Source of the DNA: Dimargaris cristalligena
Taxonomy: Eukaryota; Kickxellomycota; Dimargaritomycetes; Dimargaritales; Dimargaritaceae
DNA: 40,303 nucleotides
NCBI GenBank assembly: GCA_027576995.1
Contig: JANBQC010000221.1
Location: forward strand, 1-40,303
Direction of reading: 5' to 3'
A program made the position numbers and the translations under genes. The notes under the pieces are model-generated. The model saw only the letters and a list, made by a program, of their open reading frames with translations. It was not told the origin of the DNA and made no database searches. Shown piece after piece: positions 8,876 through 34,100 of the stretch. Within the stretch, counting starts at the first letter, position 1; every line of letters begins with the position of its first letter.

Positions 8876-11730
8876 TTAATTGTAGTCCGGTCGGACAAGT
8901 TTGCGCAGGGCCAGCATGAGGGTCGCTTGACGCTTGGCTTGGCACACCAAAAAGTTAATCAGGCAAGTTTCGTCGACACGGAGCTGGTAACCGATATCGT
9001 GATTAAAATCACGGGAGGTGATGCTGTCGGGCTGGTATACGATTTTGGTAATATACCGGCGCAGCTTTTCGGACAATAGCGCTGGCACCCGATGGTGGTC
9101 GTAATCGGACCACTGCACCCCACATAAACTTTGGGTAAAGTGCCACACGGCCATCCGGAATGGTTCCGTGTCGATTCCCGAATCGGTCGCCCAAATATAT
9201 TCGGCGGGGTCACCCACAGTATAGTCCGTCTGCTGGACCGAGAGTCGAAACTCTAGTTTGAGATGCTCCTCTTGGTCGGACAAATACTGGCCAAGCAGGT
9301 AGCTCCCGTGCTGATCCCACGTCAGGTCATTACGGAAGGCTGACTCGGGCTTGGAACCGAGACCAAGCCCCGGCTTTGGGTACATCACCGGGGTTACCCG
9401 GGCATCGGGGCCCAGCACATAGCGATACATGGTACGCTCAAATCGTTGAAGGGGCGCGAATTTAGGACCTAGCGACATGTGAACATCGGCCATTTCCGGG
9501 ACGCGGGTAATAATGGAGGGGTGGGCTAGGCTGTCGTAGGAGGCTAGAGGGTTATGCGGAACCACGGCGGCCGGAATGGACTGCTCGTCGTCCCCAAATG
9601 ACACTATGCTGAGCGGAGTCAGAGACAGGGCCTGGTGACTGGGCAAGGAATTCAACGAAGAAATCTCGGGCATACTAATACTGCTGCCAATGACTTCAGG
9701 CACAGGGCTGACGGTGAATTCGGGCATCGACAGATTCGCTCTGTGGTAGTGCTCATGCCTGGGGTTAGGCTCAAGTAGGTCGGGCGATGCACTGCGCGAT
9801 AGCTTGGCGTACTTGAATTTCCGTAAGTCGTCTTGCGAGTGCCGGCGGAGGGTTTGGAGCAGCTTCCACGTCATGGCTTTATTGGCCGGAAGTTGGGCCG
9901 TTTCCATTCCGGGGACAGCCGACAGCGAATAGGCAGGAGTGCTCAGGGTTGGAATGGGGAAGATTCGGGTAGTGGGTGAATGAAATACATGATACTCCAC
10001 CTGGCGGTTGATACGAGCGAAGAACGGATCTTCCGTCAACTCTGCCGTGGCTTGCGAGTTTCGGTAGGACTGATCTGAGGACGACTCAGCGGGCTCCGTA
10101 ATCAGGGCAAACCCACCCGGTATGTCCACTTCAGGCACTGCCCCACAGCTAAGGGCCAGTCCTGCAAAGGCGTGGCAGGTAGTGAGTAAGAAAACGGCGT
10201 GGCTCAGATCGGAGGCCAGCCAACCTTGGGCCATTGTGTGCGACCGCGGGCGGTATACCAGTGGGGGAGGGGATGGAATGGCATCGGGCCCCAAAGTCAA
10301 AAAGGCCTCTCGCTGCCGGGTTACCCGCTCCATGTTTTCCGTAGTTCCTAGGCCGACGAACAAAAGCTGGAAGTGATCGCGAGAGACAGCCCAAGGACGA
10401 TGAGCTAAGAGAGAGTTAAGGTAGGCCAGCGACTGTAGTTTGGGGGGCACGTAGTTCAGTCCGGCGAGCCATTTTGGGTCTCCCTCGTGGCGCAAGAACT
10501 CCCGCTCGAACAGGGATACGCCGTAGTAGCAGTTGAGCTCCGCACAGGCCATGATGGCCAAGTAATAGCGCTGGGCCATCGGAAGATGCCCGTTCATCCG
10601 GATTTGGGCATTGATATTAATGAATGTATTGGTGAGGAGAGTTGGGAAATACATGAAAATACGGCCCAGGTGGTTTAGACGGTGATCCTGGCAGAACAAG
10701 GACTCGGCCGCTTCCTGTGCCGCCTCGCTACATTCAATTTCTTCCTTGTCATCGCCCGACTCATACACGCAGGAGGGGAATATGGGGTCGTAAAGGCCCG
10801 ATGGTGACAGCAAGTGTGTAAAGTCCTGTGCCTGGATCGGCTTCTGAGGCAGTTTGACTAGGTAGCGAGGCAAGATAAAAAACGACGGGGAGCTGGTGAG
10901 GGGCTGGGGAACCAGATATTTGTACTGTTCTAAACGGCCTAGATAATGTGACCACTTTAGACGAGTCTCCGGAAAGGGACAGTTGATGCTTAAATGCAGT
11001 GCGGTGAGGATACGTACTACAACCAAGGACCGAATGTGTCGCTCATCCCGAGTACCTAAAGTACCGAGATTTTTCTGGTGTTGCTGATGGGGAAGGAATG
11101 GGGCGAGGGCAGGGTGCCCAAGCGGACTATGCATAGATGGGGCCGGCAGGTTCAACTGGGGCAGCTCAGGGCTCAGGTGATCGGTGGGCAGGGACAACGA
11201 TTGTGAACGACTGTGAATAGAGTGCACCTTGCGAATTTGGGGCTGGTCTGAATGGCAGGGAATGAGGCTTGGTGAGGGGGAGTGATGAGCTCCCGGCCGC
11301 GTAGGGAAGTACGCCTCCGAGTGATTCAATGGGCGGGCTCCGTAGAGGGTGCGCTTAAGACAATGCCAAGTGGTTTTGGTGGCCTCCAAGCGGCCCTTGA
11401 TCGACGGGGAGTATACAAGCCGTAGGGGTTGGCTGGCTTCGTACAGGATACTGGGCTTTCGGACATAGTCGGCCACCTCTATTAGTATGATCAGCAGTAC
11501 ATTATGGGGTATATAAAAAACCGGTATGATGAAAATAGGTAAAATCGCACTGTTAGTAAAATCATCCGTAAGATGGTGGAAAGTGTTAGCAAATGAGAAT
11601 CTTAACGGTCGGTAGAGATGGTTAAAATGCACGGCCGGGTTCGATAATTGCAAGGCAAAGGAAAAGCGAGAGGGAGATTAATAGACAATCCGATTAACTT
11701 ACCTTCATGAAAAGCACAGTTGGGGTCCAT
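8876..11730 (-). CDS. Sestrin (PA26 family), fungal
   Basis: In animals sestrins bind leucine and inhibit GATOR2, so TORC1 is held off when leucine is scarce. Exon 1 is 11730-11703, exon 2 is 11478-8876; the spliced product is 876 residues against about 480-550 in animals. Family blocks: YYLAIMACAELNCYYGVSLF (314-333), FLRHEGDPKWLAGLNYVPPK (337-356), LNSLLAHRPW, LSHAVFLLTTCH, LTWDQHGSYLL (728-738), a C-terminal helical part with GVQWSDYDHH (796-805), and ALRKLVRP near the end. By my alignment with human SESN2, C125 and Y127 are kept (C326, Y328) while H132 is Phe333. Leucine contacts R390, T386 and E451 are kept (R784, T780, E846), but W444 is lost. Long Ser/Pro-rich additions lie before residue 250 and at about 461-690. 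A TTACAG acceptor just upstream of exon 1 means further 5' exons are possible. Confidence 0.9.
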
Positions 11731-31184: not shown

Positions 31185-34100
31185 ATGCAGCCCATGCCCA
31201 CTGCCCTAAAGCAATTGCTCTCCAAAGGCGATGTCAAAGCCGTCAGCTCCCTTTTCCACCAGGAACACCCGCGCAGTCGGGCCAGCGGCCGTTGGTCCGG
31301 GTCCGTGGGGCTTGGCATACCCCGTAAACCGTCGCACCGTTTACCGCAGGCCTTCGCCGCTTACATTATCACCACCGAAACCCGGGTCGAGTCTAACGCG
31401 GCTCGCAAGAAATACACCGCGTATAAGGTCCTGGTCTCCAACGGACCAACCCAAACTTGGGTAGTGCGTCGGTATAGTGACTTTTACCAGCTGCACCTTC
31501 AGGTCAGTGAATATATACAAAACCCCCCGCTTAGTTCATTTTGCGACCGGGCCAATTTTTACCCCTTATTTCATCATGATACCTCTCTCCTGTACCCTCA
31601 TGCGTCTGGCCCAAAGCACTCAATATGCCCTCTCTCTAACGAACTATTCCACAAACCTTGCCGCGAATGTACGACTGGTATATTAACCTAATTTTACTCC
31701 AATTGCATACCCCGGATTCCCATCTATACGATAAATACCCCCCTCCCCTCCTATGCTGTGTTTGGCGGGGCTGCAGATTGGCAAACGATTTCCCACCAAG
31801 AAGCTTCCCCCATTCCCGCCGAAGCGTTTGCTAGGTAACCATTTTTCATCCCAGTTCGTGCTGGCCCGCCGGGAGCAGCTCAATCAATACCTGGCGGCCA
31901 TTACCAGCGACCCGGAAATCCGATGCCTGGATATGGTCAAGGGGTTTTTCAGTCATATCGCGCTTGAACCAACGTTCTTCGACGGACCATCCAATCCCAC
32001 CGAAGTGCCAACTAACGGAGTAACCCCACGCCAACGGCCCGGTGGCAATAGCGGTGCTAGTTCTGCGCATGGTGTTGGAAATAACCGACTGTCGATATTC
32101 AGTTTATGGCGCAACTCGTCCAAATCAGCCGAACCCTCTAATAGCCGCAAGCCGCCCCTACCACCATCGGCCATAGCAGTCGTATGCGCCTCCCAGGCCC
32201 CGACCTCCAGCCCCGGAACACCCTTGGCACATGACCTAACCCCGGTCCGGCCGGTGCCCGTCAAACCGGCCTCACCCGATGACCCTATGCTGAAACGGCG
32301 CACCTTCTCCGTTTATAATGCCCGCCGTAAATTAGGTCTAATTAAGCGAAAGGATCTTACCAAGAAGCGGCGAGTTCACCTACCACCGGTCAATGGGATC
32401 CAAACTACCCCATCACCGTCCCAGTCGTCCGAAGCGAAATCTACCGAGGCGCCGACCCATTCCACGAGAACCCCGGAGGGGGGTGTGGTCAAGGCCAGCC
32501 GTCGCTTATCGCTTTCGAGTACCGATGATCCGTACGATCAGGACGAATTAACCCGAGATACGTCTAATCCTTGTTTTCCGCGGGACAACACCACTATTGA
32601 CGATTTCTACCTACTCAAGGTCATCGGGAAGGGCAGCTACGGCAAGGTAAGTTGTAATAACCCTGGGAACAAATGGAGACTGGTCACATAATACCTTCCA
32701 CATGATAGCTTTTGCAAGCCCCATGACCAGCGTTGAACATCGACCATAATACTATTGGCGAGCTGTATCTAGCCCCATTAATCCAAATACAATTGAAACG
32801 AATATCCGACCACCCTTATATGAACAACCCAATTGGACTTCCCTAGGTCATGCTCGCCCGGCATAAAAACTCGGGCAAAGTGTACGCCATCAAAGTAATC
32901 ACCAAGAAGTCCCTCCAACGCCGACCCGGGGATATCGCCCGGATTATGGCTGAGCGCAATGTATTGGCCCGTAATATCAGTCACCCTTTCCTAGTCGGAC
33001 TCCAGTACGCTTTCCAAACCACCCAGAAGCTGTACTTCTGCATCGACTACGTCAATGGCGGCGAGCTCTTCTTCCATCTCCAACGGGACCAGCGCTTTGA
33101 CGAAAGGCGGGCCCAATTTTACGTGGCTGAAATCACCCTGGCCCTGGAGTACCTGCACAATCTCAACATTGTCTACCGGGATCTCAAACCCGAAAACTGT
33201 CTACTAGACTCCAAGGGTCATATTCGTATCGTCGATTTCGGATTGGCCAAGGATGTCTCCCGGGCGGCCGACGCAAAAACCTCCACCTTCTGCGGCACCC
33301 CCGAGTACCTAGCCCCCGAAGTCCTCCGCCAGGAGGCCTACGGGAAGAGCGTAGATTGGTACTGTTTGGGAGCGGTGCTGTACGAAATGTTGGTCGGAGC
33401 ACCCCCGTTCTACTCGCGTGACAGCAAGGACATGTTCCACGGCATTCTCCACGGGTCCCTCGAATTTCCGGACCATGTCAGTCCTGTGGCCCGCGATCTA
33501 ATCGTCCGACTTACTTCGCGGAACCCACTCACACGGCTGGGATCGGGGGTCCGGGGCTCGTACCATGTTAAGGCCCATCGGTTTTTTGAGGTAAGCATAT
33601 CACTGGTTTCGGCTAATGGCTTAAAGTGAAATACCTTTAGAGTATGAAGTCCCTTAGAATCATTTGGGGGTATGATTACTAACCATTTTCGATGAATTAT
33701 ATTTTATTATTATAATAATTATCTGGGGGGTGTAAATGTCCTAAATTTTTCGTATTCTCTAGGGTATCAACTGGAAGAGGCTATACACCAAGGAAATCAC
33801 TCCGCCGTACAATCCGGATGTGGTATGTAGTTTCAGTAATCCTGATTGCCCTATTAACGGTTGCATAAAGTACCGGGCCACTCTAATCATCTAACGGCCA
33901 TTTTAATAACTATAATGGCCATCGACTCTGACCAGTTAGATCCGAATCTAACACATCACTGAACCACAATATTGCCCATTATTGTCCTATTTCTCTCGTC
34001 TCGGCCCCCCCCCCAAAACTGTAGGCCGGTATTTTCGATTTAAAGCACATTGACCCGGCTTTTAGTAATGAACCCATCCCCCAGTCGCTACTCGATGAGG

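Follow-up and report, generated by a model that had tools for sequence, protein, structure and literature searches.

By sequence, the closest solved structure to the protein described here is that of human Sestrin-2 (SESN2; phmmer E-value 1.5e-37). The available text of PMC11429811 names T374, T377, T386, R390 and E451 as the polar leucine contacts of SESN2 and H86 as the latch partner of Y375. Y375 and H454 are given as contacts in the available part of PMC12735963, and W444 belongs to an apo-locking triple mutant according to the excerpt of PMC12136191. On the GATOR2 side, alanine at D406 abolishes binding by human SESN2 (PMC4674687, excerpt), and SESN2 D406/D407 were modelled on WDR24 R46/R121 (PMC10938194, excerpt).

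PMC11429811 sets 213 non-metazoan sestrins against 1006 from metazoans. For the 213 non-metazoan sequences, its accessible sections report E451 in 80%, T374 in 76.1% and T386 in 75.6%; D406 in 53.5%, with Glu there in 25.4%, and D407 in 80.3%; C125 in 90.1%, Y127 in 91.5%, H132 in 1.9% and T377 in 4.2%. The same sections mention a sestrin of Yarrowia and suggest a metazoan origin of leucine sensing. Fungal sestrins are thus known from surveys, and the surprise that an earlier note on this DNA had expressed at a fungal sestrin is not borne out, as the protein is reported across early-diverging fungi in the available text of PMC11836306. With that text and PMC11429811 in print, neither a fungal sestrin nor a kept E451 is new, and the sestrin of Dimargaris cristalligena is new only as a family member. 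No paper on it was found in the open-licence literature searched. No ligand or docking test on a fungal sestrin was seen there either, in searches not aimed at that alone.

Gene structure and family membership

Dimargaris cristalligena is placed in Kickxellomycota, Dimargaritales by NCBI taxonomy. The window, the whole stretch of 40,303 nucleotides that was analysed, carries on its minus strand at 8876-11730 a two-exon gene with a product of 876 aa (Table 1). The spliced product is identical over all 876 aa to H4R33_003588 (P0001), which was deposited as "hypothetical protein". In a scan of donor and acceptor positions, no splice but that of intron 1, or one of two slides equivalent to it in sequence, gave this protein. 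In Dispira simplex, the homologue (P0002) has a similar start, MDLNSLFHEEVA, and the common motif spans the splice. A TTG-start frame of 925 aa was rejected as gene model; there, 58 intron residues replace the first nine. Elsewhere in the window, on the plus strand, a PX-domain frame (31753-32691) is directly followed by a protein-kinase frame (32850-33629); the two are probably exons of one PX-kinase gene.

Table 1. Features of the Dimargaris sestrin gene in the window.
Feature	Position	Strand	Basis or remark
Exon 1	11703..11730	-	28 nt, MDPNCAFHE + 1 nt, ATG at 11730; reproduces the N terminus of H4R33_003588
Intron 1	11479..11702	-	224 bp, GTAAGT...TACTAATAG
Exon 2 (remaining sestrin, stop at 8876)	8876..11478	-	Open frame, identical to H4R33_003588
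SESN-A (N-terminal AhpD-like) segment	10355..10729	-	Residues 260-384; PA26 positions 18-142; SESN2 alignment
Second SESN-A stretch, WSLAEL motif	10070..10231	-	PA26 positions 145-198; weak phmmer, i-Evalue 0.013
SESN-C domain, leucine-pocket and GATOR2-docking equivalents	8891..9331	-	PA26 positions 306-443; phmmer, MAFFT
T760-D-Y-T763, lid motif T374-Y375-N376-T377	9218..9229	-	Three MAFFT modes
Lid loop V764-D779, 16 residues	9170..9217	-	8 longer than SESN2 I378-D385 (MAFFT alignment)
T780 (T386), F783 (L389), R784 (R390)	9155..9169	-	phmmer, MAFFT
S800-D801, equivalent of D406-D407 (DD motif)	9104..9109	-	phmmer, MAFFT
G839 at W444	8990..8992	-	MAFFT; D840 in Dispira, G747 in Tieghemiomyces
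E846, equivalent of E451	8969..8971	-	phmmer, MAFFT

The protein matched Pfam PA26 (PF04636) at 231 bits (E 3.3e-68; cut-off 29.4), and PA26 was the sole Pfam family matched at E up to 0.1 and again at up to 1. The PA26 profile is covered in order, so that both halves of a sestrin, SESN-A and SESN-C, lie in one chain. Protein searches gave a homologue set of three Dimargaritales sestrins, the query's own record included; the relatives from Dispira simplex and Tieghemiomyces parasiticus (P0003) scored 181.7 and 203 against PA26. Two wider protein searches returned only the query (1 of 7993 and 1 of 31 candidates) and were insensitive, the first missing even Dispira and Tieghemiomyces. A profile search of the 27-Mb assembly, with one candidate place scored, reported no further PA26 match. 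Judged by its profile and alignment matches, the Dimargaris protein is a genuine sestrin.

In SESN-A, the redox-site residues C125 and Y127 of SESN2 are kept as C326 and Y328, and H132 is replaced by F333. The rarity of H132 among non-metazoan sestrins in the available text of PMC11429811 means that this residue is not family-defining. W429-L430 correspond to W189-S190 in the weak phmmer stretch; S190 is thus Leu in Dimargaris and Ser in both relatives. AF2 models had a mean pLDDT of 30.2 for the full protein, from an alignment of three sequences, and of 39.6 for SESN-C, from four rows of which one was the query's own full protein; both values are too low for structural use.

Upstream of PA26, residues 156-220 (LHLSINCPFPETRLKWSHYLGRLEQ...SPSFFI; window 10847-11041, minus strand) have 33 of 65 positions invariant among the three Dimargaritales proteins. 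No Pfam family matched this segment at E up to 1. It is possibly an extra N-terminal domain.

Kept and changed residues of the putative ligand pocket

Residues were matched to human SESN2 by sequence alignment, using phmmer and three MAFFT modes. The earlier note had numbered T780, R784, S800-D801 and E846 correctly on the 876-residue protein, and its pairing of R784 with R390, E846 with E451, T780 with T386 and S800-D801 with D406-D407 came out the same in phmmer and all three MAFFT modes. The charged pair R390 and E451, the latter presumably holding leucine's amine in SESN2, is therefore in place. T374 and T377 are also kept, as T760 and T763 (three MAFFT modes). Equivalents of all five polar contacts, T374, T377, T386, R390 and E451, are found in all three Dimargaritales sestrins.

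The remaining pocket residues differ. L389, which we take to line the pocket of SESN2, is Phe in each of the three proteins (F783 in Dimargaris), and Y375 is Asp in each (D761). The earlier note had also reported W444 missing, and the three MAFFT modes agree, with G839 in its place; the residue is Gly, Asp and Gly in Dimargaris, Dispira and Tieghemiomyces, respectively. This region contains a one-residue indel, and a shift by one would place Ile, Val or Met there, so that an aromatic residue fits at neither placement. H86 is replaced by Phe in Dimargaris (F287) and Dispira and by Asn in Tieghemiomyces. H454 is L849 in Dimargaris and Phe in Dispira, and is kept in Tieghemiomyces. In Dimargaris, the hydrophobic floor and lid latch of SESN2 (L389, W444, Y375-H86, H454) thus read F783, G839, D761, F287 and L849. 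The lid loop that separates T377 from T386 is also longer than in SESN2, by 8 residues in Dimargaris and Dispira and by 19 in Tieghemiomyces.

Is the kept grip more than chance? Across SESN-C of human SESN2 and the three Dimargaritales proteins, 22 of 138 aligned positions are invariant, and 9 of the 63 polar human residues. All five polar leucine contacts are among these nine (P 1.8e-5). When the lost Y375 and H454 are counted, with Tyr as polar, 5/7 polar contacts are kept (P 4.5e-4). For T374, T377 and E451 alone, none of which lies in the conserved DT..R helix, P is 0.0023; for the pocket sites as a whole (5/9 kept) it is 0.0054. The five contacts are not independent, because T386 and R390 share one generally conserved helix. 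The tests nevertheless treat sites as independent, the three fungal sequences come from a single family and the sites were picked after the claim had been made; for these reasons the values support, rather than prove, a kept amino-acid ligand grip in Dimargaritales sestrins.

D341, D385, R448 and N456 match the ligand contacts in conservation. This similarity would suit a sestrin that docks on GATOR2 in a stress or redox role and does not sense amino acids, its kept polar residues being structural and leucine sensing having been refined only in animals. Such a protein could well have the changed lid latch, W444 and L389 seen here, with H454 lost in two of three species, and a CxY redox site that retains C326 and Y328; the accessible sections of PMC11429811 argue that the lid and base motifs arose in metazoans. 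The redox role fits less well with Phe at the proton-relay position H132. Lid residue T377 also speaks against it, since all three Dimargaritales sestrins keep a residue that is rare in the non-metazoan set of PMC11429811 (available text), although they are close kin and the loop alignment is uncertain. We consider this explanation unlikely, while giving it more weight than the other alternatives below.

GATOR subunits and the putative docking surface

The earlier note had proposed a search for GATOR2 subunits, and WDR24, WDR59, MIOS and SEH1 were found in the Dimargaris genome. WDR24 is a single open frame (L011:2847-5999, G000:C78) of 1050 aa with human WDR24 as best match (1e-46); no second copy was seen among the candidates scored (one full match, eight weak partial). 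WDR59 matched at 2.6e-24. MIOS was identified by PF21720 (73 bits), PF21719 (31 bits) and human MIOS (1.5e-16), which in the search for structural relatives stood below an engineered chain labelled WDR24. SEH1 (8.7e-65) is encoded at L035:376-1842 on the minus strand (G000:C194). This clear SEH1 gene stands in contrast to the available text of PMC11836306, where Kickxellomycota, taken as a group, are said to lack Seh1. On the GATOR1 side, the genome encodes DEPDC5 (42 bits) and NPRL2. ITFG2 gave a partial match of 68 positions; KICS2 (PF09404) gave no match in the Dimargaris genome, and likewise none in the control genomes.

The DD motif of SESN2 is not intact. Its first acid is Ser in all three Dimargaritales sestrins and its second position is acidic in all three. 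At SESN2 positions 346, 351, 364, 406 and 407, Dimargaris has Q732, Leu, K750, S800 and D801 (MAFFT). L351 is Ile in Dispira and Arg in Tieghemiomyces. In human proteins, where the sestrin-WDR24 contacts come from AlphaFold models and mutants, the excerpt of PMC10938194 covers tests of R46, K120 and R167 of WDR24 and of D346, L351 and D364 of SESN2, and places S190 near SEH1L in models. It judges the contribution of K120 weak and the effect of single D346R and D364R mutants very limited. R228D in WDR24 breaks binding (PMC12136191, excerpt).

We aligned the Dimargaris WDR24 with its human counterpart at these positions. R46, K120, R121, R167 and R228 are replaced by N60, S133, C134, V181 and N241, so that none of the five is basic. 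As a control, the 250 aligned propeller residues (25% identity) include 33 human Lys/Arg, of which 11 are still Lys or Arg in Dimargaris, and against this rate 0/5 has P 0.11. Loss of the basic patch was therefore downgraded as a strong argument, being within general divergence.

The contact between sestrin and GATOR2 might all the same be rewired in Dimargaris, with docking weaker, made through other contacts or directed to another partner. Acids D346, D364 and D406 are lost from the sestrin together with all five of the WDR24 basic residues that face them in the human pairs (R46/R121, K120 and R167 in the available text of PMC10938194; R228 in that of PMC12136191). Weighed with the control value, with a WDR24 from one species placed at 25% identity and with human pairs of which K120 is weak and D346 and D364 count for little (PMC10938194, excerpt), this joint loss leaves a rewired interface possible but weakly supported. 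D801 is still acidic, L351 is kept as Leu and neighbouring R135 may substitute for R121. We hold such rewiring to be quite improbable.

Proposed reading and comparison with known sestrins

The earlier note had suggested a fungal amino-acid sensor with a changed pocket or partner, and this suggestion survives in part. With the charged pair kept, W444 and D406 changed, and GATOR2 and GATOR1 genes present, a changed-pocket TORC1 amino-acid sensor is the best reading. Replacement of D406 by Ser and the changes at W444, Y375, L389 and H86 in all three species count against it. On balance, we think it rather probable that the Dimargaris sestrin is an amino-acid-responsive TORC1 inhibitor of ancestral type whose pocket and lid were remodelled and whose ligand need not be leucine. 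Its fold is inferred, as are the binding of a ligand, docking on GATOR2, control of TORC1 and common ancestry.

Under this TORC1-inhibitor reading, ligand-free sestrin would dock on the WDR24 and SEH1 propellers of GATOR2, and GATOR1 would then turn off TORC1 together with the Rag GTPases. Once in the pocket, an amino acid would be held by R784 at its carboxylate and by E846 at its amine, with T760, T763 and T780 as further holders, and its binding would release sestrin from GATOR2. With a floor that lacks Trp at 444 and has Phe at 389, and a lid that has a longer loop and lacks the Tyr-His latch, the pocket departs from that of SESN2, so its affinity and its choice of side chain probably differ as well. 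A more specific proposal goes further. The Dimargaritales sestrin would have been re-tuned for a different amino acid, the grip of Arg, Glu and three Thr being held while floor and lid were rebuilt, and paired losses would have shifted the WDR24 contact from a salt bridge to a mainly uncharged one. In this full form we find the proposal doubtful, to about the same degree as rewired docking.

The genome also carries genes for leucine synthesis. A 2-isopropylmalate synthase (L014:1552-3144, G000:C201) scored 617 bits, above the cut-off of the bacterial-type model NF002086. The same frame scored 126 bits against the yeast-type model (cut-off 697), a weak leuA match explained by the enzyme being bacterial-type. 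Two frames, L044:589-3933 (G000:C3) and L045:1647-5213 on the minus strand (G000:C203), of 1114 and 1188 aa, join a 3-isopropylmalate dehydrogenase (Iso_dh; leuB above cut-off) to aconitase-type large and small domains. Models of leuC type stayed below their cut-offs on these frames. They are possible LEU2-LEU1 fusion enzymes, in which the aconitase part, to judge from the fusion, would be isopropylmalate isomerase. Given the synthase and the leuB-aconitase fusion, obligate leucine import by Dimargaris was not supported, and with leucine-synthesis genes present the need for a leucine signal from outside is not obvious.

By sequence, the Dimargaritales sestrins divide the SESN2 pocket, keeping the general amino-acid grip and not the part that would choose leucine. 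The three proteins make it testable what the ancestral sestrin sensed and whether GATOR2 docking came first.

Compared with human SESN2 (PDB 5DJ4, 5CUF), the Dimargaris protein shares PA26, the SESN-A and SESN-C halves and the residues C125, Y127, T374, T377, T386, R390, E451, D407 and L351. It differs at Y375, H86, L389, W444, H454, H132, S190, D346, D364 and D406 and in a lid loop longer by 8. SESN2 has 480 aa, whereas the Dimargaris protein, with an extra N-terminal region and a long linker, has 876. Dispira simplex and Tieghemiomyces parasiticus, both Dimargaritaceae, have 35% and 36% identity to Dimargaris over 99% of the query and resemble it in the five polar contacts, Ser at D406 and a longer lid. 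Unlike Dimargaris, both have Ser at S190, and Tieghemiomyces has H454 and a lid longer by 19. Compared with the non-metazoan set in the available text of PMC11429811, the Dimargaritales sestrins have T377 in 3/3 rather than 4.2%, and Ser at D406, where over 75% of that set has Asp or Glu. For other early-diverging fungi, the accessible part of PMC11836306 reports that several non-Dikarya groups keep sestrin alongside GATOR parts and homologues of TSC and KICSTOR, with scattered occurrence elsewhere.
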